Shown here one piece after another: positions 36,491 through 52,277 of a stretch of 64,000 bases of DNA (its first letter is position 1; every line of letters begins with the position of its first letter). The stretch is from a virus: the IMG/VR virus record IMGVR_UViG_3300023174_000036, positions 124,001 to 188,000 of that record. One strand, written 5' to 3'. The notes under the pieces were generated by a model. The model ran no database searches and was not told the DNA's origin. It saw nothing but the letters and a program-made list of their open reading frames with translations. A program made the translations under genes and the position numbers.

Positions 36491-38224
36491 TTAATTTTTG
36501 CCAGATCGGTCTGTTAGCCTTGCATGTTTCAATAATTCTGCATTGGTCATCTTGGAGTACTTATCTACCTGTCCAGCATCATACGGAATATTTTCCACTG
36601 TTCCACGTTTAACAAAGGTGCCGTCTTCATCGTAGCCGTCCGGACCATACCATCTTCTATAGTTGTTACCAATGTTTTTCCATCCACCTTTTTCAGTTGA
36701 TGTAACACTTGCGCCTTGATTAGTTTGCCCTAATTTTGCTCTAACCGCCGCTAATCGTTTTTGTATTGCAGGATCTTTGGATTTTGCTAACTCTGCAATA
36801 AGAGCATCAATTTGTGCTTTTAATTTTGCTAACTCTGCGGCTTGTTCTGCTGTAGGTTTATTAGCAACAACAGTTTCTTTGTCTTTTACTTTTCCTGCTT
36901 GATTAACTTCGGCTTTTTTCTCAGCATCAGTCTTTCCTTCAGGACCATTAGCAGTCTTACCATCAGTCTTACCATCAGTCTTACCATCAGTCTTACCATC
37001 AGTCTTACCATCAGTCTTACCATCAGTCTTACCATCAGTCTTACCATCAGTTTTACCATCAGTATTGGCATCTGTACTGTCATCAGTTTTATCATCTGTT
37101 GGGTTGTCTAATACTTCTTCTGGTTCAGGTAATGGTTTATCTCGCATAGCAAGGTATGCGCCGCCAGCAGCCAAAGCTACAGGAATACTGATTAATCCAC
37201 CGACTTTAAGTTTTCTACCTAACCAGCGCCAGAATCCAACTTCTTTTTCAGTGCCTTCAATTCCTTCCCATGCACCTTTATAAGATGGGTCATCTTTTAA
37301 TGTACGCTCTAATTGTTCGCTAGGAGTTTCGTTAGGTTTCTTAGGTAGCAACTCGCCTTCTTTAACTTTTATTGTACCGTCATCGAGTGCTGGCTTAACA
37401 GCATCTTTTTCTTTTGCAATTTCTTTTTTAACAAGTACTTCTTCACCAGTTTTAGGAGCAGTTGGTTCTTCTTTTGGTGATGTTGTAGATTTTGGACGTT
37501 TTGCTAATTCAAGTTCGTATTCTTTTCTTGTTACTGCTGGAATGTCTTTATTTTTTAATGCGGCTTCGAGTTCTTCTCGACTCATGCCTTGAGCTTTTTT
37601 TCTTGCAACTTCTGCACTATCAAATTTATCTTTAGGTGCTTCTGCCGGCGGCGCTGACCCTTTTTTCTTGGCTAGTTCATCAGCAAATGCTTTTCGTTCT
37701 ATTGCAGTGCCTTCTCCGGATGCAATTCTTTTTTCTAATTCAGGAATACTTAATTTTTCAGCTTTTGCAGTTGCTTCAGCGGCAGGGTCTAAGGCAGGGC
37801 CTGTTGGTTCAGCAACTGTTTTGCCAGCATTAGCACTAGTACTTTTTACCACTCTGCCTTCGTTTGCGGCTGTTTCAACTTCAGTTTTGATAACATCAGC
37901 TGTTCTGGTTGTGATTTTTTTGGGTACTTTACCGTTAACGGTTTTAATGGCATACAGTTCAGTTCCAGGCATGTGTTCCCATACTTCGGTAATTTCACGC
38001 TCAGCGAGGACCTTGACGCCCTTATCTACTTTTGGTACCATTTTCACACTAGTAATTTCAACACGCGGCCCTAGTTCTTTTATTAACTCTTTGCCGCTTT
38101 TGCCAATTAGTCTTTTTACAAATTGTTCGCCGGTTTCTCCAACAGCGCCTTCGGTTAGGGTTTTGTTTTCAATACTGTCAAGAATACGTTTAAGTTCTGA
38201 CATGTGTGTAGTTAAATTTGTCAT
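36491..38224 (-). CDS. Low-complexity virion-type protein with TDGK repeats and one TM helix
   Basis: 577 residues; AGGAAGG lies before the ATG, which overlaps the upstream stop. The N-terminus has a helical tag (MSELKRILDSIENKTLTEG) similar to those in neighbouring genes and an LTE|G site that fits prohead-protease cleavage. The middle is Lys/Glu/Ala/Pro-rich with repeated units (EL.K.....R..F..ELAKK). A transmembrane helix (GGLISIPVALAAGGAYLAM, ~345) precedes nine TDGK repeats (~385-420). The C-terminus is a compact domain (WKNIGNNYRRWYGPDGYDED). Could be a head-internal or injected protein. Confidence 0.6.
   Translation of the reverse strand: MTNLTTHMSELKRILDSIENKTLTEGAVGETGEQFVKRLIGKSGKELIKELGPRVEITSVKMVPKVDKGVKVLAEREITEVWEHMPGTELYAIKTVNGKVPKKITTRTADVIKTEVETAANEGRVVKSTSANAGKTVAEPTGPALDPAAEATAKAEKLSIPELEKRIASGEGTAIERKAFADELAKKKGSAPPAEAPKDKFDSAEVARKKAQGMSREELEAALKNKDIPAVTRKEYELELAKRPKSTTSPKEEPTAPKTGEEVLVKKEIAKEKDAVKPALDDGTIKVKEGELLPKKPNETPSEQLERTLKDDPSYKGAWEGIEGTEKEVGFWRWLGRKLKVGGLISIPVALAAGGAYLAMRDKPLPEPEEVLDNPTDDKTDDSTDANTDGKTDGKTDGKTDGKTDGKTDGKTDGKTDGKTDGKTANGPEGKTDAEKKAEVNQAGKVKDKETVVANKPTAEQAAELAKLKAQIDALIAELAKSKDPAIQKRLAAVRAKLGQTNQGASVTSTEKGGWKNIGNNYRRWYGPDGYDEDGTFVKRGTVENIPYDAGQVDKYSKMTNAELLKHARLTDRSGKN
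36959..37066 (-). repeat. Nine tandem 12-base units encoding TDGK
   Basis: Nine consecutive copies of a 12-base unit (ACCATCAGTCTT on the + strand), with single-base changes only in the last two copies. In frame, they encode a (TDGK)9 hydrophilic linker in the 36491 gene. Near-perfect copies indicate recent expansion or contraction by slippage, so copy number probably varies among relatives. Confidence 0.95.
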
Positions 38225-39849
38225 TGTAGGCCTTCCTCTAACCCTGTTTTTTTCCTTGCCCAGTCTATGCCAGGTTGTATAGTGTCCAAGGCCTTATCAA
38301 CCCCTTTACCTATGGCTTTGTATGTATCTGGTAAAAATTCTTTTAATATCAAAGCCGCACCATTGAATCCTGCAGAAATTAAAGCTGAAATTAACAAAGC
38401 CAATTTTGACAAATTACCTGTTAAGCCTTTATAAAATGCATCTGCATGTACTTTAAGTGCGGCGCTTACTGCTTCAGCAGCCTTTGTGGGATTTAATTTT
38501 ACTAATTCCCAATAAGGTTTACCCCAGATTTTTACCATACTTTGAATGCCACGAGCTATTCTAATAATCCATCTAACAAATATTGCACCAGCTCCTGCAT
38601 ATCCAACCACTGCAGAACCACCTGCGGTAAATGGAGCCATAATAGTTCCCACAAGTACAAACCCAGCCGCAATGCCTAAATCTATTCCAAGATCTTTAAA
38701 GCTGTATACTCCGGGTATAATTTCGTCTTCCCAAGACAAAGTGCCTTCGTTCCATATGGCATTAGGGATAGTTGTTACTATATTTTTCTCTTTCCATGTA
38801 CGGCGATCAACTCTGCCAGATTTAGTATCATCTGGATCTCCGTATTTGCTTTGTAAATACGCATCCACATCAAAGTCATCATCGTCTTTTTTAGATTTTG
38901 TATCTTTGGGTTTGTCATACTTAGACGACAAATTCAAATCAGCTTCAGCTTCTAGCAATGAGTAAGGATGATTTTTTCTATAACCAAAACTTTCAATCAG
39001 TTCTGCAATTGAAGTTTTTTTTTGATAACCAAAACTTTCAACTAGTGAAGCGGCTAGGTTAGATTCTTTAACAACACCGGGCACTGCTATTTGTTTTGCG
39101 TTGTCCCATGTAGCTCCAGCATTTGGCGCCACAGTTTGCCCGCCCGTGGCTTTTGTGCCACCCCATGTGGGATCAAATGCATGTGCATTGGCATCATCGC
39201 TATCGTCCATGGGGTCTCTAGTTGAAGTAACTTTTGCGGCCTGATCTTTTTTAGCACCAGTGTTGATATCTTCTTTAAGTTTGAGATACTGATCAACCAA
39301 GCCTTCCAGTTGAGTCATTTTTGCTTCTTCATCTGCTGATGAAACTTTAGCGGCTTGTGCCGCATCAACTGGCGCTGTTGTATTAGCCGCCACATCTGCT
39401 GATTGTTTTTTAACAGCATCAAATTCTTTTTGTGCTCCACCGCTGGATAACCAGTTGGTTAATCCTGCTGGGCCCTTTGCATTTGCAGGGATTAATCCCT
39501 TAGCGGCTAGCGGCTTCCAATCATCTGGACTTGGTGGAACGACCCGAGGATTTTCTCCAGGGTGCATTTCGCTATTAGAACTCCACGTTCTATTTCCGTA
39601 GGCCACAACAAAATCGCCTTCGCTGTTGAATAAGCCTTCAAAATTGTTTTGCTGTGCCAGTTTAGCTAACGCAATGTTACCAGCAACACGAGGATCCCAT
39701 GTGGTAAATCCAGTCCAACCGCCTTTGGCTTTTTCAGCAACAGCTTTGTCCATTGCGGCTTTTTCTACAGCGGCAATGCTTTGCAAGGTAAGAGAACCTT
39801 CTGCTTCATTGATATGATCTAATTTATTAATGAGTTCTCTAAAGTTCAT
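38221..39849 (-). CDS. Large virion-block protein, candidate internal head protein
   Basis: 542 residues from ATG 39849 (GGAAAAAG upstream; TTG 39861 rejected). N-terminal tag MNFRELINKLDHINEAEGSL contains INE|A, fitting T4 prohead-protease cleavage. Residues ~20-100 look like a folded module (WTGFTTWDPRVAGNIALAKL). A duplicated SLVESFGYQKK / LIESFGYRKN segment lies at ~270-300. The C-terminal ~150 residues are hydrophobic (AAGFVLVGTIMAPFTAGGSA, ALLISALISAGFNGAALILK), so it may insert into membranes. Function unknown. Confidence 0.6.
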   Translation of the reverse strand: MNFRELINKLDHINEAEGSLTLQSIAAVEKAAMDKAVAEKAKGGWTGFTTWDPRVAGNIALAKLAQQNNFEGLFNSEGDFVVAYGNRTWSSNSEMHPGENPRVVPPSPDDWKPLAAKGLIPANAKGPAGLTNWLSSGGAQKEFDAVKKQSADVAANTTAPVDAAQAAKVSSADEEAKMTQLEGLVDQYLKLKEDINTGAKKDQAAKVTSTRDPMDDSDDANAHAFDPTWGGTKATGGQTVAPNAGATWDNAKQIAVPGVVKESNLAASLVESFGYQKKTSIAELIESFGYRKNHPYSLLEAEADLNLSSKYDKPKDTKSKKDDDDFDVDAYLQSKYGDPDDTKSGRVDRRTWKEKNIVTTIPNAIWNEGTLSWEDEIIPGVYSFKDLGIDLGIAAGFVLVGTIMAPFTAGGSAVVGYAGAGAIFVRWIIRIARGIQSMVKIWGKPYWELVKLNPTKAAEAVSAALKVHADAFYKGLTGNLSKLALLISALISAGFNGAALILKEFLPDTYKAIGKGVDKALDTIQPGIDWARKKTGLEEGLQ

Positions 39850-39861
39850 TTCTTTTTCCAA

Positions 39862-41232
39862 TTATTTTTTCTTTGTAATACTTGCGCCTTGACCAGACTT
39901 TAAATCATTAGAAATTTCTTTTTCGTCAAATGGTCTTGGTATTGAGCTAACCGCTTTATCCACTGCTTGTCTTGCATTTGCACCTGCTGACACCAAGGTA
40001 TTGGTAACTTTATTTACCACTGAGTTAGCACCTTGCTCTCCAATGTGTGGATTAATACCTTTGCTCTGCACTCCGCCTTTACGACGTTTTGCGGCAAGCT
40101 CACCAATACCATGACGAATTTGTTCTAGATTTTGTTCAAGACCCATGAACATGCCGCCTTTGGCTTTCTTACAAATTTCTTCCCAAGCAAGCAGACTATC
40201 GCTTTCTGCTAGTTCAGCTAATTCTTTTAATTGTGCGCGAGCTTGTGCAATGCGACCTTTCAAGCTCATTGGGTTTGCTTTCTCGTGTCCGTATATGTGC
40301 GGATCATTGGGATCTCCAGTCATTTCAATCGGAGTCTCCGATACTGTTTGTGCAGATTCTTTCATCAGCACTCGTTCAGCAATGGTCTTGGCATATTGAT
40401 TAATCAATGCACGTTTTTCTTCTTTGCGTTGCATAATCTCAGTTTCAGCTTCAACAAAGTATTTGTCAATTAGTCGTTCACGTGGTTGTGGTTTTGTTTT
40501 AGGTTGCTGATAATGTTGCATGGCCATTTGCACTGGCAATGCAACCTTGTGTGGATTAGTGCCTTCACTTAGTATACTAACATCATTTTTATCTACAATA
40601 GATAAGAATTTACTTAGACTGTTTTCTTGGACTGGCGCACCATTAACTTGCGCCATTGCACGACCATATGTGGCTTCTTTATCTTTGTTACCCATAGCGT
40701 ATAAATCTTTATTTGACACAATATTGTTAGCTTCCTCGCCACGGCCCTGCCATGATTTAGATGTTATTCCTTTGGCATCTCGACCCATTGCCATCTTACC
40801 TACACCTAAATCGTATTCAGTATTATGTGATACCACTTTACCTTTAGCATCAACAGTTTGGGTAGTATTCATTGGGCCAGCATTATAATTTTGTGTAGTT
40901 TGATTATTAGTCAAATCAATTGTTTGACTTGCTCCAGTGAATTGAGGTGTAGTGTATTTTATAGCCTTACCTGACTTATCATAGATAAATGTTCCAAACC
41001 CACCAGCATAAGTTTTAGTACCATCTGGATTTGTTGTTAATTTAGATCCATCGCCTTGGTCGCCATCTTGTGCAGGCAGTTGCGGTATGGGAGGAACTTT
41101 GACTGGTTTAACGGCTGGTTGATTAATCTCAGCTTCTTTGACCACACGAAGAAACTTAGACATGCTGTCAGCACCTTCTACAGGCTTTGAAGCAACACCG
41201 TCCATTGCCTGTAAAATTTTCTTCATGTCCAT
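39862..41232 (-). CDS. Virion-block protein, candidate internal head protein
   Basis: 456 residues; AAGG lies eight bases before ATG 41232. N-terminal MDMKKILQAMDGVA is followed by SMSKFLRVVKEAE (~residue 23), repeated later as SLSKFLSIVDKND (~205). A Gln/Asn/Thr-rich beta module (TKTYAGGFGTFIYDKSGKAI) and a helical domain (AQARAQLKELAELAESDSLL ~330) follow. It ends DLKSGQGASITKKK. Same operon and style as its neighbours; no enzyme motif. Confidence 0.6.
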   Translation of the reverse strand: MDMKKILQAMDGVASKPVEGADSMSKFLRVVKEAEINQPAVKPVKVPPIPQLPAQDGDQGDGSKLTTNPDGTKTYAGGFGTFIYDKSGKAIKYTTPQFTGASQTIDLTNNQTTQNYNAGPMNTTQTVDAKGKVVSHNTEYDLGVGKMAMGRDAKGITSKSWQGRGEEANNIVSNKDLYAMGNKDKEATYGRAMAQVNGAPVQENSLSKFLSIVDKNDVSILSEGTNPHKVALPVQMAMQHYQQPKTKPQPRERLIDKYFVEAETEIMQRKEEKRALINQYAKTIAERVLMKESAQTVSETPIEMTGDPNDPHIYGHEKANPMSLKGRIAQARAQLKELAELAESDSLLAWEEICKKAKGGMFMGLEQNLEQIRHGIGELAAKRRKGGVQSKGINPHIGEQGANSVVNKVTNTLVSAGANARQAVDKAVSSIPRPFDEKEISNDLKSGQGASITKKK

Positions 41233-41236
41233 GCTA

Positions 41237-42148
41237 TTAACCTTTTAATACTCTGCTGGTTATATCTTTAATGCGAGTTAATTCTGAATTTTCTTTTAAA
41301 CTTCTAAACTGTGCAGTACCGCCGGGCATTATTGGCCCGCCATGCAAGTTGTCGCGTTCTTGTCCTGCTTTGTTGTACCACTTACCATCTTGACCTTTTG
41401 TCAGTGGTTCTCCAGTTTGATAATCTTTAGGAACAAATGGCGCAGATGGAGCAGGTTCTGGCTCGCGTTGTCTAGGTTCGCGGACATTCCATCCTGCGGC
41501 TTTCATTGCGGCAAGTGTTTGCTTTCCTGGCATTCCGGCAGTTGCTTTGCCATTTTCAATCTTGATATGTGAACCAAACCCAATGGTATGGATATTGTCT
41601 GTTAATTCAAGCCAATATATTTTACCTTGTGTATCAAATACAGTAGGATAATTCTGCCCATCATAGTTAGTTGTTGTTAAAGTAAATCCATTTCCTAAAT
41701 CCTGATCAGCACCTTCTTCTAAACCAATAGCACCTTTAATTTTATCTACTATGCTTGGCTTTTGCATACTTGGCGGTAAGCAATTGTTTGGTAATGTCTT
41801 AACAACACTTGGATTTCTCGCCATCCATTCTTTAGCAGGTAACACAGGAATGTAATTTCCTTTAGAATCTAACGGTGCTCCGTTTCCGGCACCAGGTTCC
41901 CCAGCCATAGCTTCTGCACTGCGAAGATTTTCAATACGCCATTTAATTTGATTTCTTTCCCACGGCTCACGGGCACGTGATAACAAATCATTAAGTTGCC
42001 TAAATTGTGGATTTTTATTGTTATAGTCTTTATCAGCTTGATCAGCTTCTGCACGATCGTCCCCAGGCCATCCAGGCTGACCATTTAGCTCAGATAATCG
42101 AGTATTATACTCAAAAATAAATCCTGGTTCAACATCAGTTATACGCAT
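41237..42148 (-). CDS. Virion-block protein with C-terminal shared peptide
   Basis: 303 residues. It starts MRITDVEPGFIFEYNTRLSE. The N-terminal helical domain (QFRQLNDLLSRAREPWERNQ) is followed by a beta-rich middle (GFTLTTTNYDGQNYPTVFDT) and the tail LKENSELTRIKDITSRVLKG. That tail closely matches the end of the 42153 gene product (KESADLDRMKQFLTRLNG). Function unknown; probably packaged with its neighbours. Confidence 0.6.
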   Translation of the reverse strand: MRITDVEPGFIFEYNTRLSELNGQPGWPGDDRAEADQADKDYNNKNPQFRQLNDLLSRAREPWERNQIKWRIENLRSAEAMAGEPGAGNGAPLDSKGNYIPVLPAKEWMARNPSVVKTLPNNCLPPSMQKPSIVDKIKGAIGLEEGADQDLGNGFTLTTTNYDGQNYPTVFDTQGKIYWLELTDNIHTIGFGSHIKIENGKATAGMPGKQTLAAMKAAGWNVREPRQREPEPAPSAPFVPKDYQTGEPLTKGQDGKWYNKAGQERDNLHGGPIMPGGTAQFRSLKENSELTRIKDITSRVLKG

Positions 42149-42152
42149 ACTA

Positions 42153-43958
42153 TTAACCGTTCAAACGTGTCAAGAATTGTTTCATGCGATCTAAGTCCGC
42201 TGATTCTTTAACAGGGTATGTTTTTCCATCCACTTTGAATTCAGTCTTGCCAGCTTTTCTAGCCGCGTCTAATTCTCCTGAAAATTCGTTACCCTCATCA
42301 GCCACATCATTGCCTTTGGTAGGTTTGTCTTTTTTCTGAACAGCTGATTTTTCGGCAATGTATGCTTGTGTTTCTTTAATGTTCTTCCACATAGCGGCAG
42401 CGGCAATCTTTTCACCTTTCTCACCACCACCAGCAGCCTTGGCCACTTTGTCAAAACTCTTACCTGGCTTGCCAATGTCTTTGCCTGCTTTAGCATCTTT
42501 AACTACAGCTGACTTCTTAGCCTTGCTTAGACCTGCACTTGGTTTGGCGGCCTCTGGTAAATTTGGACGAGGATGAGTGCCTTGTGCTGATTTGATACTG
42601 CCTTTTAAACTACTGACGTGATTTCTACTTGGCATGCCTTTGCGTTTGCCGTGTGTGTTCATCGAACCAGCACCGCCGCGGCCGTATCCTTTGACTAGTG
42701 GATCATTGTGGTCAAATTCGCCACCGCCCTTTAGATTCTTTTCGCCCGGATAGTCATCTGGTTTTGGACCATTGTAATAATCATCATCATGATAATCATA
42801 CTGGTCATAATCACGCGGCTCTTGAGTATACAATTTGTCTTTGTGTTTAGGATCACGCCACTTGGCAGCTTCTTTAACTGTCTTGCCGCCTTTTTCATCT
42901 TTACCAAGACGTCCGGCAATAACATCACCGCGTGTTACTTTGTCGTATGGTTTGGCATTGTTGGCCAAGTTGCCATCGCCTTTCTTTTTAGCTTCGTAAA
43001 CGCCTGTGCCATAAGTTTCGTCAACTTCTTTGGCTTTCTTTGGTTTAGCAGGAGCACCATCTCTGTTGTCAAACTTCTCGCTGTCCTTCATGCCCCAAGT
43101 CTTGGCACTCTTTGGACTTTGCTTTTGTGCTGGAGCTCGCTTTGCTTTCTCTTCAGCTGATTGTGCTTTGGCATGACTTGCTTTGCCTTTGCCTGATTTA
43201 GCCATCGAATCCAGCTCGTCGCCGTCATCTTTGTAGCTGGTATTTTTATGAATTACACCTGTGTCAGTTTTAGTTAATTCGCCAGTGGCTGTTTTCTTTG
43301 TGGAACCCACTTTGGCATTTGCATCAAAATCTTCGTCCACTTCTTCGTCGTCTGGAATACCATTGTGGTTACGGTCAAGACGTTTGCTGGCAGCATGGAA
43401 CGCTTTGGCTTGACGATTGTATTTTTCAACTTTTGATTTAACATGATCTGGAATTGCTTTAGGCTCTTCGTAAACCATTCCACTGCCGCCACATTCTGTA
43501 CATTCACGATGTCCACCACTCAAAATACCTTCGGCAATTTTGTCGTCGGCATCGGCTTTGATTTTTTCTGCGTGTACTTTCTTAAGCTCTTTAACTTTAG
43601 ATTTAGCCTCCATCAGGCGATTATTAATAATACGCTTTTGGCTTTCGGTATAAACTTCGCTGTCTTCAAGAGCTTTGCCATACTGGCTAAACTTCATTTC
43701 ATATTCAAGATAATGGTAAACGGATGCAATATAGTCAGCGGCTTTGGTAATCTTGGCTTGCACCCAGGCTTCCATCTGATCTTCATCATTAATCTGTTTA
43801 AACAGCTTGTGTGAATAGTTTGCAATCTTGTATAAATCAGCTTTGGCCATTGCACCTTCGCGATCGGACTGTCCGGGCTGTAATCCAATTACATTTTCCG
43901 CGTCTTGCGACATGATTTCTGGCTCTGCTGGTCCCATTGGGTTCATTTGATCTGACAT
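42153..43958 (-). CDS. Large conserved phage protein with Cys motif and charged C-terminus
   Basis: 601 residues; GGAG lies before the ATG. The N-terminal ~150 residues (AKADLYKIANYSHKLFKQIN, AADYIASVYHYLEYEMKF) are a helical domain I recall as conserved in T4-like cyanophages. Then ECTECGGSGMVYEEP (~155) resembles half a DnaJ-type zinc finger, and DRNHNGIPDDEEVDE (~200) resembles a calcium-binding loop. The remaining ~380 residues are Lys/Gly/Asp-rich and probably disordered, ending in the shared ADLDRMKQFLTRLNG peptide. Candidate internal head or scaffold-associated protein. Confidence 0.65.
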   Translation of the reverse strand: MSDQMNPMGPAEPEIMSQDAENVIGLQPGQSDREGAMAKADLYKIANYSHKLFKQINDEDQMEAWVQAKITKAADYIASVYHYLEYEMKFSQYGKALEDSEVYTESQKRIINNRLMEAKSKVKELKKVHAEKIKADADDKIAEGILSGGHRECTECGGSGMVYEEPKAIPDHVKSKVEKYNRQAKAFHAASKRLDRNHNGIPDDEEVDEDFDANAKVGSTKKTATGELTKTDTGVIHKNTSYKDDGDELDSMAKSGKGKASHAKAQSAEEKAKRAPAQKQSPKSAKTWGMKDSEKFDNRDGAPAKPKKAKEVDETYGTGVYEAKKKGDGNLANNAKPYDKVTRGDVIAGRLGKDEKGGKTVKEAAKWRDPKHKDKLYTQEPRDYDQYDYHDDDYYNGPKPDDYPGEKNLKGGGEFDHNDPLVKGYGRGGAGSMNTHGKRKGMPSRNHVSSLKGSIKSAQGTHPRPNLPEAAKPSAGLSKAKKSAVVKDAKAGKDIGKPGKSFDKVAKAAGGGEKGEKIAAAAMWKNIKETQAYIAEKSAVQKKDKPTKGNDVADEGNEFSGELDAARKAGKTEFKVDGKTYPVKESADLDRMKQFLTRLNG

Positions 43959-43982
43959 ATTTGTAACTCCGTTAACTTGTAA

Positions 43983-43990
43983 TATTTATC
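43983..43990 (-). promoter_or_regulatory. T4-type late promoter (GATAAATA)
   Basis: GATAAATA on the - strand overlaps the stop codon of the 43986 gene and lies 24 bases before the ATG of the large 42153 gene. It would drive the virion-block operon (42153 down to 36094). Confidence 0.6.
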
Positions 43991-44588
43991 TTTTGACGCT
44001 GCCGCCGCCCAATAGGTTGGCACCCTTCATATCAAGGGCATTTTTAGCAGTACCATCTTTGTTCTTAGGCTGTTTTACTGGTTTGTTCTTGTATACTGCA
44101 CCAACGCCCACATTGGCCGCAGTAGTCATGTTTCCAGGTGCGCTGGCGAATTCTTTTAGGGTTTCACTGACCGGAGCGCCAGTTTCGTGTACTGAAGCTT
44201 TTTTACCTTTGTTTTGCAAACTTCTAGCCACAGCTTCTGCGTGTGATTTGCTACCAAACACCTTCCAAGTTTTACCATCTATTGCAACTGCGTAATTGTT
44301 AGTTTCATGGCCTAATTCGTGTTCCATCTCACGACGTTTGAATTCACGTTTTTCGCGATCCCCAAATCCAGTACGATTGTCATCGTAGTTACGATAGCTT
44401 TCAGCCACACTTTCCTTCTTGGCAGTTTTGGCCGCATCTTTCCATGCTTGTGCTGTGGGCGCTTTAGGACTATCAGCATCTCTACTAGTGCCTGCTTTTT
44501 TACGTTTGTTCACATAGTAGTATAGTCCTTTCTTTTCACTTTCTACTATATCTTTTTTAACACTTTCATCTAATTCATGCATTTTCAT
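43986..44588 (-). CDS. Conserved basic phage protein
   Basis: 200 residues; GGGGAG before the ATG. Motif GLYYYVNKRKKAGTSRDADS (~21-40) then PKAPTAQAWKDAAKTAKKE recurs, from memory, in marine T4-like phages. A small folded module lies at ~95-130 (NYAVAIDGKTWKVFGSKSHA, resembling a SPOR/single-strand-binding-like beta-alpha unit). Basic, Gly-rich C-terminus. Possibly a DNA-associated head protein; not demonstrated. Confidence 0.62.
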   Translation of the reverse strand: MKMHELDESVKKDIVESEKKGLYYYVNKRKKAGTSRDADSPKAPTAQAWKDAAKTAKKESVAESYRNYDDNRTGFGDREKREFKRREMEHELGHETNNYAVAIDGKTWKVFGSKSHAEAVARSLQNKGKKASVHETGAPVSETLKEFASAPGNMTTAANVGVGAVYKNKPVKQPKNKDGTAKNALDMKGANLLGGGSVKR

Positions 44589-44872
44589 AATTTTTTCTCC
44601 CCAGTCATGTATGGTAAACTAAACCATAATTTGAACCATTCAGGAGTTCCTGGTTTAATATTGTTTTTGCGCTGTATCTCACCGTTGTTATCGCCGGTTA
44701 CACTGATGTTGCTGCCTAAGCTAGCACGATACTCGTGTAGTCTTGCTTCACCACCTAGACCACCTAGACCAGCCAGTGCTTTTAATTCGTGTATAGGATC
44801 ATTGGGATCGAGATAACAATCGTCATCTGCACTTTGATTCAAATCCTGTGTAGTGATCCTATATTGTTTCAT
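44585..44872 (-). CDS. Small phage protein of unknown function
   Basis: 95 residues from ATG 44872, overlapping the Dps-like gene stop (ATGA); a longer frame from 44896 lies inside that gene. MKQYRITTQDLNQSADDDCY, a Gly/Leu-rich segment (LAGLGGLGG) and a C-terminal WFKLWFSLPYMTGEKK motif. Unknown function. Confidence 0.6.
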   Translation of the reverse strand: MKQYRITTQDLNQSADDDCYLDPNDPIHELKALAGLGGLGGEARLHEYRASLGSNISVTGDNNGEIQRKNNIKPGTPEWFKLWFSLPYMTGEKKL

Positions 44873-45306
44873 TTTAAACTTGCTCTTAACATCCAACTGT
44901 GTTTCTTATGCGCATCCTGACGATCTGCAAAGAAGTTACTTAGTCCGTGATCACCAGCATCTTCGGCCATGGCAAACACTATCTTGAACATGTTGGCCAT
45001 TTTATCACTATCAGCTAACAGTTCGCGTAACATACTTTGAAAATCTGGAACTGAGTTCTCATCTTCAATCTTGCTCAGCATACTAAATTTGCTGTAACTA
45101 GCAGGCGCATAAATTTGCAAAGCACGTAGTTCTTCTGCAAATTTATCAACTACTCCATACACTTCGTCATATATTCTTTCAAACAACAAATGATGCTGAT
45201 AAAACAACGGCCCTTCGGTATTCCAGTGAAAGTTTTGCGCCTTTAATGCAAATGAATATTCGCTGGCAAATGCTGTTTTTAATGCTAAATGATATTTTTC
45301 GTCCAC
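44869..45306 (-). CDS. dps: Dps-like ferritin
   Basis: 145 residues from GTG 45306 (GGAG upstream), close to Dps length (~150-167). NFHWNTEGPLFYQHHLLFER and IYDEVYGVVDKFAEELRALQ place His27, His39, Glu43, Asp54 and Glu58 at exactly the spacing of the Dps ferroxidase site (His31, His43, Asp47, Asp58, Glu62 in E. coli-type numbering). Dps proteins form 12-subunit shells that oxidise and store iron using peroxide and may bind DNA. The basic N-terminal tail of E. coli Dps is missing. Its place among virion-type genes makes packaging or protection of phage DNA from oxidants conceivable. Confidence 0.85.
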   Translation of the reverse strand: MDEKYHLALKTAFASEYSFALKAQNFHWNTEGPLFYQHHLLFERIYDEVYGVVDKFAEELRALQIYAPASYSKFSMLSKIEDENSVPDFQSMLRELLADSDKMANMFKIVFAMAEDAGDHGLSNFFADRQDAHKKHSWMLRASLK

Positions 45307-45307
45307 T

Positions 45308-46402
45308 TTAAACTCCGTATTTGTTTCGTTTAGGTTTTGCTACAGGACTGACTTTATGAGTAGAATCCAATTCTCGACTCTTCATATCGCCTTTATTTGT
45401 ATCCTTGTAACTAGCACCAACAACCTTATATGCTTGTTTAAGCATGTCTTGTTCTTCTTGTGTATAAGGATGAGTTGTTTTTTGTTTACCAATCCAGCTC
45501 TTGGCCTTCATCTCAATAGGGTCTTTGCCGTTAGCACCAGCCACGGCCATGCCTAATCGATATGCGGTGTAATCACCGCTAACATGCTCGCTATCACCGT
45601 AAGTATTAACACCTCTAGTGGGCTGTTGTTGTCGCTTGGTCATTTTAGCCTGCGATGACTCTAGCATTGCAGTCATTTCTCTAATTTGTTCTGCTAGTTG
45701 AAATGCACGAAGATTTTTCTTTGGTGTATTCTTGTTTACGTCAACTGTGGTGTTTTGTTTTGTAATAATACCAACACCTGCGGCATCTTCTTTGGCTTTA
45801 ACTGCTTTTTTAACTTTTTCTGGATACTGATTTAAATAATATGCAACCACATCAAATATAGGTTTTGCTTCACCATCAACTTCGACGGTCACACTAGGAT
45901 CAATGCCCATGTCTTTATAGAACGCATTACGGTCACCGGTTCTTACAGCCTTACGCAAATCCGTTGCACTTGCCAATCGTTCTGTTGCAACATGCTCAAT
46001 ATTTTTAAATTTATACATACCATGTTCGCTTTCAGCGCCATTGTATTTGACCAATACGTCAGCTAACCATGTTTCATCGGTATATACTTTCAAATGTACA
46101 TTTTCACCATACTTGTCGTAAACACTGGTGGCTAATGTTAGCAAACTTTGTTCAGGAACAACATGACCTGCAACTGGCGGAAATACTGCGGCCATGCATT
46201 GTAATTTAACATCATAGGGTAATGGATCTTTAGGGCCGCTAGTGCTGTCGTTAGTTCCTACATACCAAATTGGATTTTTGCTGGCTGCTTTCCATACACC
46301 TTTGTGACCTTTGTGCGGAGGATTAAAGCGTCCAAATGAAATCCCAATAGTCTTTATACTATTAGTTGGTTGCTCACCTTCAAACATTTCTCTTAACTTC
46401 AT
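45308..46402 (-). CDS. NMNAT/cytidylyltransferase-like nucleotidylyltransferase
   Basis: 364 residues from ATG 46402 (AGGTGG upstream, ATGA overlap); GTG 46411 rejected. N-terminal tag MKLREMFEGEQ, then the HIGH-type motif FGRFNPPHKGHKGVW (~25) and the second motif SATDLRKAVRTGD (~145), as in NMN adenylyltransferases and related enzymes. These transfer a nucleotide from NTP to a phosphorylated substrate such as NMN. The C-terminal ~150 residues are a Lys/Gln-rich extension not found in cellular enzymes. The tag resembles those of neighbouring genes, so the enzyme may be carried in the head. Confidence 0.78.
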   Translation of the reverse strand: MKLREMFEGEQPTNSIKTIGISFGRFNPPHKGHKGVWKAASKNPIWYVGTNDSTSGPKDPLPYDVKLQCMAAVFPPVAGHVVPEQSLLTLATSVYDKYGENVHLKVYTDETWLADVLVKYNGAESEHGMYKFKNIEHVATERLASATDLRKAVRTGDRNAFYKDMGIDPSVTVEVDGEAKPIFDVVAYYLNQYPEKVKKAVKAKEDAAGVGIITKQNTTVDVNKNTPKKNLRAFQLAEQIREMTAMLESSQAKMTKRQQQPTRGVNTYGDSEHVSGDYTAYRLGMAVAGANGKDPIEMKAKSWIGKQKTTHPYTQEEQDMLKQAYKVVGASYKDTNKGDMKSRELDSTHKVSPVAKPKRNKYGV

Positions 46403-47613
46403 GGTACCCACCTTGATAATGTTTCCCCGCTACCGTGTTGAACGTTATCTCGTGGAACAAATTTAGTATGCATATCACCTGCTGAATCGTACTGTACCCA
46501 TCCTTCTGAATTGATAACTTTAATTTCTGGAGGATTCATTTCTAATTGCGATAACAGTTGATTTTTCAAATTCATAATTCGCTTAACATAATTAAACACA
46601 GTAGTAACGCCAGCCGGAACAGCATCTATACGGGATCTAATATTCAACTTCATGCTGTCGGATTTGACCATACCACTTGCACCTGTATCAACCCAAGTTA
46701 TAAAATCATCACCAACATTGGCCAACTGTCCTGATTTGGATTTTTCATTCATGTAACGATATATAATACCTTTGAAGTTTGATACTTTTGGAATAGGTGA
46801 CAAGAACGCATCAATAGTTGCTTTATCTTGTTTGAGATCCATTTCAATTTTATCAATAACTTTGGTATCCATTTTTGGTTGTACTTTGGCATAGTATGGA
46901 CTCAATACAATTAACTCAGGTATTGGATTCATATATGTAGTAAAATCTCTAACTGGTTTTTGTTCACTATCACCAGCACCAAATTTATCAAAGCTACCGT
47001 GTGCGGCAACCATGGCCTGTGCACCTTCCGCAATACGCTGACCCAGTGTAGAGTCGACAGCAATGTGATATTGTGTTTGACTTTTTAAATTAGGATTTAA
47101 TTCATACACACCATCCACTTCTTCTGGGGGTGTTGTAAATAGACCATCGGCATAAAAATAAATTTCTTTACCTTTACGTGGAACTTTGGTAGAAGCTTTG
47201 AAAATCTCATACAAGTGACTAAACTCTGTGGCAAACTGTTGGCGCTCTGCTTGTTTGGCAGGATCGTTGCCAGCATCACCGCTTTTGTTCAAAATAAAAT
47301 TATAAATGCCACGCACACTGGTAAAATCGCTTATATCGCTAGTGCCTGTTCCACCGCGACTCCAACCGTTGTGACCGCATAAGATAAACTGTCCGTCTTT
47401 AGTGTAGCCCCAATAAATTTGCGGTGCTCCGTCCCATTTAAATCTGGTATTTTCTGAACTAGCAGTTCCAGCTTTACGTATATGCTCAAGAGCTTTGATT
47501 ACACCAGCAGTGCCGTGTAAAAAAGTCAAATCTTCTACGTGGTTAAATGCTCTGCCAACTTTTGCTTTGACAGGTTCAACAGCCTCACGTATAAACAATT
47601 CTCTTAGTAACAC
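46399..47613 (-). CDS. Ligase-fold nucleotidyltransferase-like protein (DUF6267 type)
   Basis: 404 residues. N-terminal tag MLLRELFIREAVEP contains IRE|A, a possible prohead-protease site. FKWDGAPQIYWGYTKDG (~residue 56) has the KxDG lysine of DNA/RNA ligases and capping enzymes, and SNFKGIIYRYMNEKSKSG (~275) could be a later motif. From memory this is the phage DUF6267 family. It may adenylylate or join a nucleic acid, but full ligase motifs cannot all be assigned. It is coupled to the NMNAT-like gene. Confidence 0.65.
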   Translation of the reverse strand: MLLRELFIREAVEPVKAKVGRAFNHVEDLTFLHGTAGVIKALEHIRKAGTASSENTRFKWDGAPQIYWGYTKDGQFILCGHNGWSRGGTGTSDISDFTSVRGIYNFILNKSGDAGNDPAKQAERQQFATEFSHLYEIFKASTKVPRKGKEIYFYADGLFTTPPEEVDGVYELNPNLKSQTQYHIAVDSTLGQRIAEGAQAMVAAHGSFDKFGAGDSEQKPVRDFTTYMNPIPELIVLSPYYAKVQPKMDTKVIDKIEMDLKQDKATIDAFLSPIPKVSNFKGIIYRYMNEKSKSGQLANVGDDFITWVDTGASGMVKSDSMKLNIRSRIDAVPAGVTTVFNYVKRIMNLKNQLLSQLEMNPPEIKVINSEGWVQYDSAGDMHTKFVPRDNVQHGSGETLSRWVP

Positions 47614-47615
47614 AA

Positions 47616-47987
47616 TTAGTCCTTGTACTTGCCATCAGCTAGATGTTGTTTAAAGTCTTCTTGCATTTTTTTGCAAATACTAGTAACAGTTTTGTCGTCT
47701 AACGATTCAGGCAGTTCACGTATAGGGAATCGTTTAACATATTGCTGATAGCTACTTACAACTGCTGGCTTAAAAACATCAGGATTTATTGAACGATTGC
47801 TGTTGGCCCTATCAAGGCAGCGGGCAATGCTGGGATAAACATGACGTCGATACACATCATCGTCATGATTCATGAAATGAGTCAAGTCTTCTACAAGGTC
47901 ATAGTCCAGTTCTCTACCCTTTTCAGTAGATTTAACAAAATCTAAATCTTTAAAGAATTTATTTTCTAATAGTTCACGTATACGCAT
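47616..47987 (-). CDS. Small phage protein with N-terminal tag
   Basis: 123 residues from ATG 47987. MRIRELLENKFFKDLDFVKS shares the (R)REL tag of the two genes downstream. The remaining sequence is helical (EDLTHFMNHDDDVYRRHVYP, LDDKTVTSICKKMQEDFKQH). It lies two bases before the ligase-like gene. Function unknown. Confidence 0.65.
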   Translation of the reverse strand: MRIRELLENKFFKDLDFVKSTEKGRELDYDLVEDLTHFMNHDDDVYRRHVYPSIARCLDRANSNRSINPDVFKPAVVSSYQQYVKRFPIRELPESLDDKTVTSICKKMQEDFKQHLADGKYKD

Positions 47988-48071: not shown

Positions 48072-48704
48072 TTAGGCTTTCTCGTTTACGACCCGCTCAA
48101 CTTTGGAAATTACGCCGCTAAGATGCATCTTTGCCATGAGCAAATTATTATCACCTGTAATGTAAAAGTAACTGCCGCCCCAGCTATTGTTTCTTAACAG
48201 CTGAATTTTACAAGATTTAGTTAGTTTTATCTTGGAATTATTACTAGCCCATGTGATAAAAGTGCTGTATTCTTGCGAAGTTTTGCCCAGTGTTACCCTG
48301 TAATCGTATTTTATCTTGGGCAAAATAACTGTGTTTTCTTCTAGAGTTGTGCCGGTTGCCGGCTTGCAAATATACTTTACTCGAGATGCATCCAATTTGA
48401 TTAATTTGTCAACATCTTGTTTGTTATTAGTATACACTGTGACCCATGGAGTTTCTACACGTATTTCTATGTTGTCTAACGCAGAAAGCACATGCTCTAA
48501 CTTGATAGCATATTGCAACTCTTCTTCAGTTTTGATAGTCCAACGTTTTCTAGAATACACATCAGTTTCTAATTTTACATTTTTTATGCGGTCAGCAATA
48601 ACATCGCTGGGTGCGTTTCTAAATAAATGAGCGCCAGAAAATACCAATACAATTTTGTACTGGTACTTTCCGTAAAACAGTTTTTTAGTCTGCTTGAACT
48701 GCAT
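48072..48704 (-). CDS. Conserved phage protein of unknown function
   Basis: 210 residues from ATG 48704; the frame extends to a TTG at 48719 with no better site. MQFKQTKKLFYGKYQYKIVL, FSGAHLFRNAPSDVIADRIK and WTIKTEEELQYAIKLEHVLS suggest an alpha/beta protein. It overlaps clpA by 20 bases. From memory, it resembles a T4-like phage protein without known function. Confidence 0.65.
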   Translation of the reverse strand: MQFKQTKKLFYGKYQYKIVLVFSGAHLFRNAPSDVIADRIKNVKLETDVYSRKRWTIKTEEELQYAIKLEHVLSALDNIEIRVETPWVTVYTNNKQDVDKLIKLDASRVKYICKPATGTTLEENTVILPKIKYDYRVTLGKTSQEYSTFITWASNNSKIKLTKSCKIQLLRNNSWGGSYFYITGDNNLLMAKMHLSGVISKVERVVNEKA

Positions 48705-50961
48705 GGTCAGTAGTTTCAATTGCCAACATTGGCGCTTTAGATGTTTTACCTTTAGCTACCAATGCTATTTTATCTTCACTAATAGAGATAGTAAGCCACC
48801 CGCCGTTCTTGAGGTCTCCAAACAACATCATGCGAGCAAGGTCACGTTTAATTTCCTTGTCAATAACACGTTGTAATGGACGAGCACCCATTTTAGGATC
48901 AAAGCCTTTGGCAATAAGCCAGTTGGTAGCCTCGTTATTAATTTTGATACGAATACCTTTTTCTTTAACTTGATCACGCATTTCGTCAATGAACTTGGTA
49001 ACAACTTTGACCATTGTTTCTTTATTGAGTTTGTTGAATGTAATAACTGCATCAAGTCGATTTCGAAACTCTGGAGTAAAAAACTTTTTCAAGTCTTTAT
49101 CGCTGTAGTCTTTACTTTGTGATCCAAATCCAATAGTATTCTTTTCAGCATCCTGCGCACCTGCATTGGTGGTGAGAATCAATACAATGTTACGGCAATC
49201 AGCTTTTTTACCATTCGAACCAGTAATAAAACCGTTATCCATAATTTGCAACAATACTGTGCTGACATCTGGATGTGACTTTTCAACTTCGTCAAACAAC
49301 AAAACAGCATTAGGGTTTTCTTGAATCTGTGTAATCAACAAGCCAGCATTTTCTTCAAAGCCAACATACCCTGGTGGACTACCAATCAGTTTGGAGATGC
49401 TATGCTTCTCTTGGTATTCTGACATGTCAAACCGCAACAGTTTGACACCCAAGTGCTTGGCCAGCGACTTGGCAGTTTCGGTCTTACCGCAACCAGTTGG
49501 CCCCATGAATATAAATGATCCAACAGGTTTGTTTTCACTCTTAAGTCCTGCCTGTGCAACAATGATCTTGTCCACAATTTCTTCCACAGCGGTGTCTTGT
49601 CCAAACACATCTGCGCTGACATTGTCTTGCAATTTGGAAATACTTGCACTTTCAGTTTCAGAAACTTGTTCTTCAGGAATTTGTACCATCTTAGCAAGTT
49701 CGTATTGAATTTCACGTTCGGTAATGATACGCTCGTCTGCAAGTTTGAGATTGAAACGACTACAAGCCAAGTCAATCAAATCAATGGCCTTATCTGGAAG
49801 TTTCTTATCTGTTTGATATTTTACACTTAGCTTGATTGCTGAATGTAATGCATCGTCTTTAATTTTAACATTATGGAATCCTTCATAGTATTTTTTAATA
49901 CCCTTAAGGATCTGTGTAGTAACTTCAATTGTTGGTTCATCAACAGTAATACGTTGGAAACGACGCATCAATGCACGATCCTTTTCAAAGTGCTTGCGAT
50001 ATTCTTCCCATGTTGTACTAGCAACAACTTTGATATTGCCTTTGCTCAATGCAGGTTTCATCATGTTGGCAAGGTCGTTTGCACTGTTACCAGCAGATCC
50101 TGCACCAGAGATCATGTGTGCTTCGTCGATAAACAACACAGTCTTGCCTTTCTTTTGAAGAGCTTTGATAACTGCTTTAAATCTTTCTTCAAAGTCTCCG
50201 CGATATTTAGATCCAGCTAGCATAGCTGAGATATCTAAATTATAAACAGTGTAGTCTTTTAAGAAGTCTGGAACAGCACCCTTGACAATATTGTAGGCTA
50301 GTCCTTCTGCTATGGCAGTCTTACCTACACCCGGATCTCCAACTAAGATAACATTATTTTTATTACGACGACCCATTGCAAGTGCAATATTTTCCAGTTC
50401 GTCAACACGACCAATAACTGGGTCAATTTTATTTTTTTCTACTTGAGCATTTAAGTTTGTAGTAAACGCCTGCAGAGCTTTACTTGGTTGACCGCCTTCT
50501 TGAGGTTGTTCTTCCTCTTCAGGATCATCCACGCTGTTATTCAAGAAGTCAGCAAACTTGTCTCTATCAATGCCAGCTTTTGCAATATAAAAATATGCCC
50601 AACTGCGTTTTTCACCCATCATTGCAACAAACACATCAGTGGGCTCAATGCGCTGGCGTCCGTTGAACAACACTTGTGTAAACGCACGATTCAACACACG
50701 CTCCACGCTTTGTGTTTTCTTAGGCTTGACCACAACATCTTGCACAGTGATTTCACCGCATTTGTTTTTCAAATAATCAGTTAATTCTGATTTCATTGTT
50801 TCAGGCTTGGAACCAAAACTTTGTAAACAACTAACAAACGATTCTTCAGTCAGCATAGCTAGAAAGATATGTTCGATTGTTAAATATTCATGATGCAGTT
50901 TTTTAGCAGTCTCTAATGCTTTTTCAAATACTGCCTGCAAATTATCACTTGGTTCTACCAT
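48685..50961 (-). CDS. clpA: ClpA-type AAA+ unfoldase
   Basis: 758 residues, full ClpA length. N-terminal Clp-N repeats (EKALETAKKLHHEYLTIEHI, AMLTEESF), first AAA+ domain with Walker A GDPGVGKTAIAEGLA (~209) and Walker B VLFIDEAHMISGAGS, second with GPTGCGKTETAKSLA (~487) and LLFDEVEKSHPDV. The IGF tripeptide in NTIGFGSQSKD (~607) is the loop by which ClpA docks on ClpP. The protein can therefore probably recruit host ClpP and redirect degradation; no ClpP gene is in the window. Followed by the deformylase and DnaJ genes upstream in the same operon. Confidence 0.95.
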   Translation of the reverse strand: MVEPSDNLQAVFEKALETAKKLHHEYLTIEHIFLAMLTEESFVSCLQSFGSKPETMKSELTDYLKNKCGEITVQDVVVKPKKTQSVERVLNRAFTQVLFNGRQRIEPTDVFVAMMGEKRSWAYFYIAKAGIDRDKFADFLNNSVDDPEEEEQPQEGGQPSKALQAFTTNLNAQVEKNKIDPVIGRVDELENIALAMGRRNKNNVILVGDPGVGKTAIAEGLAYNIVKGAVPDFLKDYTVYNLDISAMLAGSKYRGDFEERFKAVIKALQKKGKTVLFIDEAHMISGAGSAGNSANDLANMMKPALSKGNIKVVASTTWEEYRKHFEKDRALMRRFQRITVDEPTIEVTTQILKGIKKYYEGFHNVKIKDDALHSAIKLSVKYQTDKKLPDKAIDLIDLACSRFNLKLADERIITEREIQYELAKMVQIPEEQVSETESASISKLQDNVSADVFGQDTAVEEIVDKIIVAQAGLKSENKPVGSFIFMGPTGCGKTETAKSLAKHLGVKLLRFDMSEYQEKHSISKLIGSPPGYVGFEENAGLLITQIQENPNAVLLFDEVEKSHPDVSTVLLQIMDNGFITGSNGKKADCRNIVLILTTNAGAQDAEKNTIGFGSQSKDYSDKDLKKFFTPEFRNRLDAVITFNKLNKETMVKVVTKFIDEMRDQVKEKGIRIKINNEATNWLIAKGFDPKMGARPLQRVIDKEIKRDLARMMLFGDLKNGGWLTISISEDKIALVAKGKTSKAPMLAIETTDHAVQAD

Positions 50962-51448
50962 TTAATTTCCTCTGTTTTTTAATTGCCATTGCTAGTTTAA
51001 GTGGACTTAGTCCATCTGTAAAACATACGCCATCCAAATGATCTAGTTCGTGTAAGAAACATCTGGCATCTAGACCCTCTAATTGTATTATACGCTCTTG
51101 GCCTGTATTGTCAAGGTATTTTGCAATCAAACTTGTACTGCGTTCAACTTTTAACCATAAATCCGGAAAACTCAAACATCCTTCGTCTCCTATGGCTTTT
51201 TCATTATTTACTTCAAGGATAATGGGATTAAACAGCCCACACTCTCGACCATCCTGAGTACGCATGACAAATACACGTTTCAACAATCCAACTTGTTGTG
51301 CGGCAAGTCCTATACCGTTTGATATCTTCATTAAACTAAGCATCTCTTGCTCGACACGTGCCGCTTGTTCACAATCTTCTGCACTTTCAAATTGCCAAGG
51401 CGTTGCTGATTGTTTTAATATTGGATTAGGATGTTTTATTAATTTCAT
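50945..51448 (-). CDS. def: Peptide deformylase
   Basis: 167 residues. All three motifs are present: [10 protein letters not shown] (45-54), EGCLSFPD (~92, zinc Cys) and [10 protein letters not shown] (~135, zinc His and catalytic Glu). It removes the formyl group from nascent proteins on the ribosome; phage copies, known in cyanophages, are thought to aid high-level phage protein synthesis. It overlaps clpA by 17 bases and dnaJ by 23 bases. Confidence 0.95.
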
Positions 51449-52277
51449 TGTTAATTGAGCGAAGTCTTTCTACTAACGAAGGATCTGTAACGGCCGGAGT
51501 TCGGATTTTAATAACAGATACAAAACGACCTTTGTGCCCAGTGTTTACATTTGGAAATCCATTACCGTGACTGGCAAATTCTGAACCGTCTTCAATACCA
51601 GCACGTAAATCAAGATCCAATGCTTGTCCTGACAATGTTTTTACTTGTTTTCTACAACCAACCATAGCGTCAATGGGACTAATGTACACTTTTGTGTAAA
51701 TGTCATCGCCCACACGGGTAAAGTTAGCATCGGGCAATATCACAATAGTAACATTTAAATTACCACGGGGTGCATTTGGAATACTGTCGTCACCAAGTCC
51801 TTGATATCTGATAGTTTCAGCATGTCCAATACCAGGCGGCACATTAATAACAACAGTTTGTGTACGTCCACTAGGCAATTTATAATTTGCTTCTAGTTGT
51901 TTGCCTACAAACGAATCCATTAACGTAATTTGACATTGGATATTTAAATCTCTATTTCGGCCACGGCCACCGTGTCTGCCAAAAATATCTCCAAACGGAT
52001 GTCCAGCAAATGGATTGTTTTGCCCAAATGCTTGTTCAAACGGATCCCAACCACCAGTATGAAAACGTACTTGTGGGCCACCCATTCTTTGTTGGTCGTA
52101 TTCAGCACGTTTATTTTGATCACTTAGTGTGTCGTATGCCACACTAATATCTTTAAACTTGGCTTGATCACCGCCTTTGTCCGGGTGATGCTTATTGGCC
52201 AAACTTCTGTAGGCTTTTTTAATTTCTTCAGGAGTTGCTTGTTCATTAACTCCAAGGGTTTGATAATAATCAGTCAT
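51426..52277 (-). CDS. dnaJ: DnaJ-like co-chaperone without zinc fingers
   Basis: 283 residues. J domain at 1-70 with the HPD motif ([20 protein letters not shown]), a Gly/Phe-rich region ([20 protein letters not shown], ~85-110) and two C-terminal beta-barrel domains ([20 protein letters not shown], ~145). The Cys-rich zinc region is missing, so it is of the CbpA type. It should stimulate host DnaK for phage protein folding. Coupled to def and clpA; a late promoter lies 30 bases upstream. Confidence 0.92.

Follow-up and report, generated by a model that had tools for sequence, protein, structure and literature searches.

Phage T4 directs certain proteins into its capsid by means of an N-terminal capsid-targeting tag (CTS), a mechanism established in the literature. 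The tags of IPI, IPII, IPIII and Alt are hydrophobic-acidic helices of 8-19 residues that end in L/I-x-E before A, G or S, as in the MKTYQEFIAE↓A of IPII and IPIII (the arrow marks the cut). Peptides of the same form open several genes in a block of 11 within a 64,000-nt stretch, hereafter the window, of a 356-kb jumbo phage record that encodes T4-type gp21 and gp23; as in T4, the mature proteins behind the tags are unrelated. Do these peptides address the block proteins to the head, and does the cargo reach the next host? We conclude that the tagged block proteins, including an NMNAT-like enzyme, are probably loaded into the head, and that infection may deliver them to the next host.

Every peptide quoted in an earlier, sequence-only reading of this DNA was found on the minus strand between 36491 and 47987 (Table 1), as was the pair claimed for gene C, SKFLRVVKE and its internal half-copy SKFLSIVDK. 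The claim that neighbouring genes share similar starts followed by L/I-x-E sites was confirmed, with limits. The site is strict in gene H, the ligase-like protein, B and A, and looser in C (VKE) and F (IVE); in the NMNAT-like tag, P3 is M in the window (MFE) and I in four relatives (EIFE). Two candidate tags had gone unremarked: MKMHELDESVKKDIVE↓S in gene F and the N-terminus of gene D, MRITDVEPGFIFE, which is followed by G in relatives. Gene E has a C-terminal peptide only. G (44585) and the Dps-like gene (44869) are untagged within the block, which counts against the CTS model.

Table 1. Genes of the block and their predicted or candidate terminal peptides (window coordinates)
Feature	Position	Strand	Remarks
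Gene H, 124 aa, function unassigned	47616..47987	-	predicted tag MRIRELLE↓N at 47964-47987
DUF6267 protein, ligase-like motifs, 404 aa, GTG start	46399..47613	-	Pfam PF19782, E 1e-13
DUF6267 predicted tag MLLRELFIRE↓A	47584-47613	-	
NMNAT-like adenylyltransferase, 364 aa	45308..46402	-	PHROG cytidyltransferase; fold match NadM/NadD
NMNAT-like predicted tag MKLREMFE↓G	46379-46402	-	
Dps/ferritin-like protein, no tag seen	44869..45306	-	PF00210, E 4e-20
Gene G, 95 aa, conserved, no tag seen	44585..44872	-	
Gene F, 200 aa	43986..44588	-	candidate tag MKMHELDESVKKDIVE↓S at 44541-44588
Gene E, 601 aa, low complexity	42153..43958	-	C-terminal peptide ADLDRMKQFLTRLNG at 42156-42200
Gene D, 303 aa	41237..42148	-	N-terminal MRITDVEPGFIFE at 42110-42148; C-terminal SELTRIKDITSRVLKG at 41240-41287
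Gene C, 456 aa	39862..41232	-	candidate tag ending SMSKFLRVVKE↓A, 41134-41232
Gene B, 542 aa	38221..39849	-	predicted tag MNFRELINKLDHINE↓A at 39805-39849
Gene A, about 570 aa, GKTD repeats	36491..38203	-	predicted tag MSELKRILDSIENKTLTE↓G at 38150-38203

How unusual are these starts? The anchored pattern M-x-x-R-E-[LM], picked post hoc from the same data, opens four genes of the block's 11 (P 1.6e-11) and occurs in 6 of the record's 415 proteins against 0.19 expected (P 6e-8). The motif [LIVMF]xE↓[AGSNT] lies within the first 38 residues in 7/11 block genes versus 85/415 overall (Fisher P 0.002). In a generic alignment of every N-terminus the block did not stand out, with 1 of its 55 pairs among the top 0.5% (P 0.24), and a profile built from classical T4 and Kyanoviridae tags ranked the block genes 19th to 367th of 416 (P 0.14). 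The only clear match to the classical MKTYQEFIAE-like profile is 29269, outside the window. Judged by their sequences, the block tags, with the core xxRE[LM][FLI] where T4 has MKTYQEF, are a divergent subtype that generic similarity tests and the classical-tag profile miss.

The sequence-only reading had suggested looking for the motif in relatives, and there the tags are kept, apart from the mature proteins behind them. The NMNAT-like tag, MKLRE[M/I]FE followed by G, S or N, is present in 13/13 relatives, including those in which the linker that follows has been replaced; the DUF6267 tag, [IVL]RE↓[AS], is likewise found in 13/13, and MRIRELLEN of gene H in all 12 relatives whose gene start is covered. 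In gene B, tag identity is 93-100% against 55-70% elsewhere in the protein. The gene A tag in one relative (L011) is 67% identical against 22% for the remainder, and the N-terminal tag of gene D in another (L008) 100% against 15% over the adjacent 40 residues. Relatives of gene C begin MARFLRVVKE↓A or MARFLRVVRE↓S. Gene F is the exception: its tag is 50-75% identical versus 73-77% for the protein, and its site is IVE↓S in the window and VTE↓A in one relative. We take the block peptides to be real, conserved and not a product of chance.

The C-termini of D and E, described earlier as nearly identical, do form a close pair (SELTRIKDITSRVLKG and SADLDRMKQFLTRLNG, rank 35 among 85,905 C-terminal pairs). 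The end of gene D is kept in relatives, and the gene E peptide is conserved at 88-94% against 32-48% for the 40 residues next to it; a role as tags is possible. As copies of the gp22 tail DIRRLAGL they did no better than random sequence (11-12% of random 20-mers score as high); 24105 and 310032 do match that tail (P 0.002 and 0.006).

A T4-type CTS requires a cognate gp21 protease and a gp22 core, and the same genome encodes both. Its gp21 belongs to Pfam PF03420 (E 6.5e-27), with a catalytic region that matches T4 gp21 (5jbl) by phmmer (E 3e-14), and a gp22-like scaffold gene adjoins gp23. The gp23 of this genome has an L-x-E site; among 79 relatives the sites read KYLxE↓S/T/A in gp23 and [LI]xE↓A/G in gp22. 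Read from these two proteins, the local gp21 site is L-x-E. Outside the block only two genes of the record start MxxRE[L/M], and both are head- or virion-linked: 83446 sits between the portal and core genes and has homologues beginning MKLVELFE↓A and MLDEIFE↓A, and 308307 is a homologue of CBB_298, detected by mass spectrometry (MS). The best classical CTS of the genome is that of 29269 (MKSFTQYLVE↓S); 29269, 308307 and 24105 are all members of PHROG virion structural families.

The NMNAT-like protein carries GRFNPPHKGH (HxGH motif), and Foldseek matched it to NadM/NadD (E 3e-5) with PPAT close behind, confirming an NMNAT-like nucleotidyltransferase fold for the enzyme named in the earlier reading. 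In 80 viral contigs, NMNAT-like N-termini fit the CTS pattern in 34 of the 37 scored, versus 27% of neighbouring genes; a stricter pattern was found in 29/37, with background rates of 19% among neighbours and 3.8% among shuffled N-termini. The DUF6267 protein has KWDGAP (KxDG motif) and EGxV, invariant in 25 homologues, and its low-confidence structure model matched no known fold at E 0.001, which leaves the ligase fold of the earlier reading a candidate. Each of the 25 DUF6267 homologues found, of marine type, opens with a CTS-like peptide, for example MKNFNNYLAE↓A; tblastn found no DUF6267 protein in the phage collection, and no nucleotide relatives turned up there. Distant homologues of both enzymes bear a near-perfect T4-type CTS at the same place.

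Three such NMNATs have been detected in cyanophage virions by MS: those of S-CREM2 (MKNFSSFLTE↓A), S-SCSM1 (MKSFLQFLKE↓A) and S-SZBM1 (MRFRQFIIE↓A). All three examined start with a T4-type CTS; the part of the cyanophage proteome literature covered here reports no processing and makes no mention of these tags. The authors, in that same part, could not exclude carry-over of abundant proteins, which counts against packaging. In these Kyanoviridae (T4-like cyanophages, Melnitz-like) the homologous enzyme has its tag directly before the domain and the DUF6267 gene adjoins NMNAT (Melnitz, S-SZBM1 and many contigs), as here. The tag sequence depends on lineage, and the window enzyme has its own disordered C-terminal extension, ending VSPVAKPKRNKYGV (SPVAKPKRNKYGV). 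Related jumbo phages contain a protein inner body (PMC7247149), which counts in favour of the CTS model. Those of the Rak2/GAP32/121Q type share with this genome a gp23 68% identical, the order gp20-core-gp21-gp22-gp23 and short-tagged virion proteins (CBB_210, MNKLQKILTE↓L; CBB_214). Unlike the window enzyme, the NMNAT homologue of these phages is short and lacks a tag (121Q, GAP32), and neither the CBB nor the phAPEC6 virion list includes it; phAPEC6 is conspecific with jumbo coliphage 121Q, and its virion proteome has nothing corresponding to the untagged 121Q NMNAT. Applied blind to CBB, a tag rule did not separate MS-detected from undetected proteins (OR 1.9, P 0.18), which counts against the model.

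The best explanation of the block tags is a lineage-specific version of the known T4 CTS, extended to NMNAT-like and DUF6267 cargo and possibly to C-terminal peptides. We put at about 0.7 the probability that the block proteins are sent to the prohead core, trimmed by gp21, kept with the DNA and partly delivered. The tag helix would bind a gp22-type core during head assembly, so that the cargo co-assembles; gp21 would then cut after [L/I/V/M]-x-E, a cleavage predicted for the window proteins, and free the mature protein inside the head. There it would remain with the DNA until infection and at least part of it would be injected, the NMNAT-like enzyme most likely providing the host with NAD-type dinucleotides at time zero. 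That the window's own proteins would be packaged is well supported by homology because the gp21 site is L-x-E, the homologous enzymes bear a CTS and tagged NMNATs occur in three virion proteomes. As far as homology reaches, then, the earlier proposal of capsid targeting stands.

Could the tagged proteins instead be packaged as parts of the core, scaffold or inner body, to be degraded or retained in the head with none delivered? This is a genuine possibility, though we hold it to be less probable than delivery. T4 gp67, gp68 and gp22 are degraded by gp21, CBB core proteins start MANIKLLQE↓A and MSKLDKFLNE↓S, and 83446 of the head cluster has the same start as the block genes. Moreover, A-F are of low complexity and rich in internal LxE sites, and a head-cluster core protein (G000:82430) shares GANL[LM]xG with the C-terminus of gene F (KGANLLGGGS) and SPVAKP with the NMNAT-like tail. 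Yet two of the tagged proteins are enzyme-like, with domains intact and no evident core role, and the CTS-tagged IPs and Alt of T4 are injected.

That the peptides bind some other target (a host protein, the replisome, a membrane), their capsid location being incidental, seems improbable. The block does lie apart from the head genes (in the record, 160-172 kb versus 79-84 kb). A search for T4-type late promoters found none in the block but one at each of three tagged or virion-like genes elsewhere, which counts against the CTS model. Nevertheless, the peptides have the position and form of a T4 CTS with a conserved LxE site, tagged homologues are in virions by MS, and other carriers of the tag are head-linked. 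Chance, or generic N-terminal composition, is more improbable still: the generic pairwise and profile tests were non-significant for the block, but the post hoc anchored pattern (P of order 1e-11), tags kept in 13/13 relatives across a replaced linker, the contrast between tag and body identity and homologues with an unmistakable CTS all stand against it.

More tentatively, and with some doubt, we suggest that lineage-specific N-terminal, perhaps also C-terminal, capsid address peptides are a general T4-type code and that the NMNAT-like/DUF6267 pair is injected with the DNA. To our knowledge, injected proteins are known for few phages. If a tag with its L-x-E site does mark cargo, cargo lists are readable from sequence, and one could list what very many uncultured phages inject. 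A question still debated for cyanophages, whether the NMNAT seen in preparations of virions is genuinely packaged or a contaminant, would be answered as well. The NMNAT-like/DUF6267 pair would then restore NAD and nucleic acids ahead of any phage gene expression, and a NAD-making enzyme present at time zero would be well suited to counter defences that deplete NAD.

The sequence-only reading suggested that short peptides in a block of neighbouring genes are T4-like capsid tags on injected proteins, cut at L/I-x-E. All the peptides it quoted are present in the window sequence. The start-anchored pattern M-x-x-R-E-[LM] occurs in 6 of the 415 proteins of the virus record versus 0.19 expected, 4 of them inside the block of 11 genes (P 1.6e-11, for a pattern picked post hoc). 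The other two are genes 83446 and 308307 (bare numbers are record positions). The first lies in the head cluster and has homologues starting MKLVELFE/A in Vibrio phage 2.275.O and MLDEIFE/A in GAP32 (a slash marks the predicted gp21 cut); the second is a homologue of CBB_298, a jumbo phage CBB protein found in virions. Because neither an all-pairs alignment of N-termini nor a profile built from classical tags singles out the block, it is correctly described as bearing its own, divergent tag subtype. A blind tag test in CBB was not significant.

Does the virus have a protease to cut such tags? The record, 356,312 bases of which the window is positions 124001-188000, encodes a T4-type prohead protease and a gp23 capsid protein, in the order core-gp21-gp22-gp23. 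Its gp23 shares 68-72% identity with those of Sinorhizobium phage Phosso, Vibrio phage 2.275.O and GAP32/CBB/Rak2-type jumbo phages. Its gp21 matches T4 gp21 (5jbl; E 3e-14) and retains the catalytic histidine and serine in the active-site segments. In 79 gp23-locus relatives, gp23 carries KYLxE followed by S, T or A, or near variants, where x is any residue (LLE, LIE, LME, LQE, LTE, LSE, LAE); gp22 carries [LI]xE followed by A, G or S, then a variable linker and the nearly invariant tail DIRRLAGL. Such a site, linker and tail recall the architecture of herpesvirus scaffolds. Judging by these gp23 and gp22 sites, the lineage of the phage follows the L-x-E rule that PMC9026906 reports for T4.

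A nucleotide search of the phage collection returned no close DNA relative of the window. The same enzyme genes occur in 13 IMG/VR contigs, where the DUF6267 protein is 80-98% identical. Across the genome, TATAAATA is present 15 times, 12 copies lying at most 120 nt upstream of a gene; such copies precede two tagged genes, 89082 and 308307, as well as 313902, a virion-homologue gene. The virus probably uses late promoters of the T4 type.

Two enzymes in the block can be followed across phages. The NMNAT-like model, whose first 12 residues are disordered, matches NadM/NadD structures (E 3e-5 to 1e-3), followed closely by phosphopantetheine adenylyltransferases, so its substrate may be that of either group. 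DUF6267 has invariant KWDGAP and EGxV, which recall ligase motifs I and IV; a fold search from a weak structural model matched nothing. T4 tags read MKTYQEFIAE/A (IPII and IPIII) and MKTFKEFTSTTTPVSTITE/A (IPI), and the first ten residues are enough for packaging (PMC9026906). NMNAT-like homologues start MKSFFQFLSE/A in S-SM2, MKSFTSFFTE/A in P-TIM68, MKKFSEIIE/A in Melnitz-3 and MKSFSQFLTE/T in P-SSM2. Of the NMNAT-like genes in 80 viral contigs, 37 were scored, and 34 of these match the pattern of a T4-type capsid-targeting sequence (CTS) versus 102 of 384 neighbouring genes; a stricter pattern is matched by 29 of 37 versus 73 of 384 (and by 3.8% of shuffled N-termini). The neighbours are an impure control in which many genes appear tagged themselves. 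Many such neighbours in marine T4-like contigs (L132-L211) have CTS-like starts, including P-loop kinase-like proteins (MKSFRQFLE/AVNGPKIIMIGGPGAGKS in L187; MKYRQLMAVLQE/GVYDKN...GGPGSGKS in L199). All 25 DUF6267 homologues found begin with a CTS-like peptide immediately ahead of the conserved domain. Tag position is thus shared across families while tag sequence tracks phage lineage, and the tag probably evolves in step with the core protein that it binds.

Closer relatives preserve the block's tags. The NMNAT-like protein of 13 relatives opens with MKLREMFE or MKLREIFE and continues with G, S or N; 6 of the 13 have a longer, unrelated linker behind the tag and a body only ~40-50% identical. 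In locus L011, the tag of gene A is 67% kept versus 22% for the remainder; in L008, the first 13 residues of gene D are 100% kept versus 15% for the next 40. At the predicted cut [LIVM]-x-E is constant and the residue after E varies among A, G, S and N. Gene F alone departs from this, with a tag no better preserved than the remainder, yet an LxE-type site stays (IVE/S, VTE/A).

Table. Coordinates of features (C1, the virus record; L, loci of relatives)
Feature	Coordinates	Remarks
Block with predicted tags	window 36491-47987 (-)	Genes A-H, NMNAT-like (MKLREMFE/G), DUF6267, Dps
Repeat run, gene A	window 36886-37111	GKTD; open frames in other frames are a by-product
Dps/ferritin-like gene	window 44869-45306	In block, untagged; present in 10/10 relatives covering the position
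NMNAT-like C-terminal end	window 45308-45360	SPV[AS]KPKRNxYGV
Small tagged protein	G000:C1:334320-334703	Same C-terminal end; MRAKEFLPE/T
Chaperone-like group	window 48685-52277	Upstream of block; predicted ClpA-like ATPase, peptide-deformylase-like and DnaJ-like proteins
Best classical CTS in genome	G000:C1:29269-29856	MKSFTQYLVE/S; PHROG virion structural family; resembles MS-detected CBB_210 in place and start, direct match below threshold (none at E 1e-3)
gp22	G000:C1:80667-81767	Further examples, L039-L118
Head-cluster core protein	G000:C1:82430-83338	Contains KSPVAKPNRMGGANLMAGS
Tagged-looking protein	G000:C1:332020-333336	MRFTEFKLVLKE/N; GDSL-like start, LysM and phage lysozyme domains; adjoins M23 peptidase
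S-SCSM1_93	L128:5047-5256	Annotated virion protein; C-terminal end KKRTFKEFLEYIE, a CTS-like peptide

The C-termini of D and E are also alike (rank 35 of 85,905 pairs) and conserved in relatives, but neither resembles the gp22 tail. Two proteins elsewhere do match that tail, 310032 and 24105 (SSELTTMLKIAGLR), the latter a homologue of MS-detected CBB_276. A C-terminal capsid address is possible.

Are such enzymes found in virions? Three reports record NMNAT/cytidylyltransferase by mass spectrometry in virions of S-CREM2 (PMC10665884), S-SCSM1 (PMC9602691) and S-SZBM1 (PMC9146016); the first two leave packaging versus contamination undecided. All three detected proteins are tagged (MKNFSSFLTE/A, MKSFLQFLKE/A and MRFRQFIIE/A, respectively). 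Short homologues in 121Q, GAP32 and Phosso are untagged, and no NMNAT-type enzyme is listed among the virion proteins of CBB or of phAPEC6, which belongs to the species of 121Q; S-SZBM1_141, an apparent, untagged DUF6267 relative, is not in the S-SZBM1 list. These are natural controls, though few in number, and a missing list entry counts as weak evidence. In phAPEC6 a 91-nm inner body lies along the portal axis (PMC7247149), so this type of capsid holds internal protein.

In the main rival explanation, the low-complexity proteins A-F belong to the core or to an inner body. T4 is the known example of CTS targeting, and the packaging of NAD-linked enzymes into the heads of myoviruses has already been proposed (PMC9503650); in the searchable literature outside subscription, we found no paper in which NMNAT or DUF6267 proteins are described as carrying CTS tags. 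Most likely, by analogy with T4, the tag helix would bind the prohead core, gp21 would cleave behind x-x-E, and the mature protein would remain with the DNA, a portion of it entering the host.
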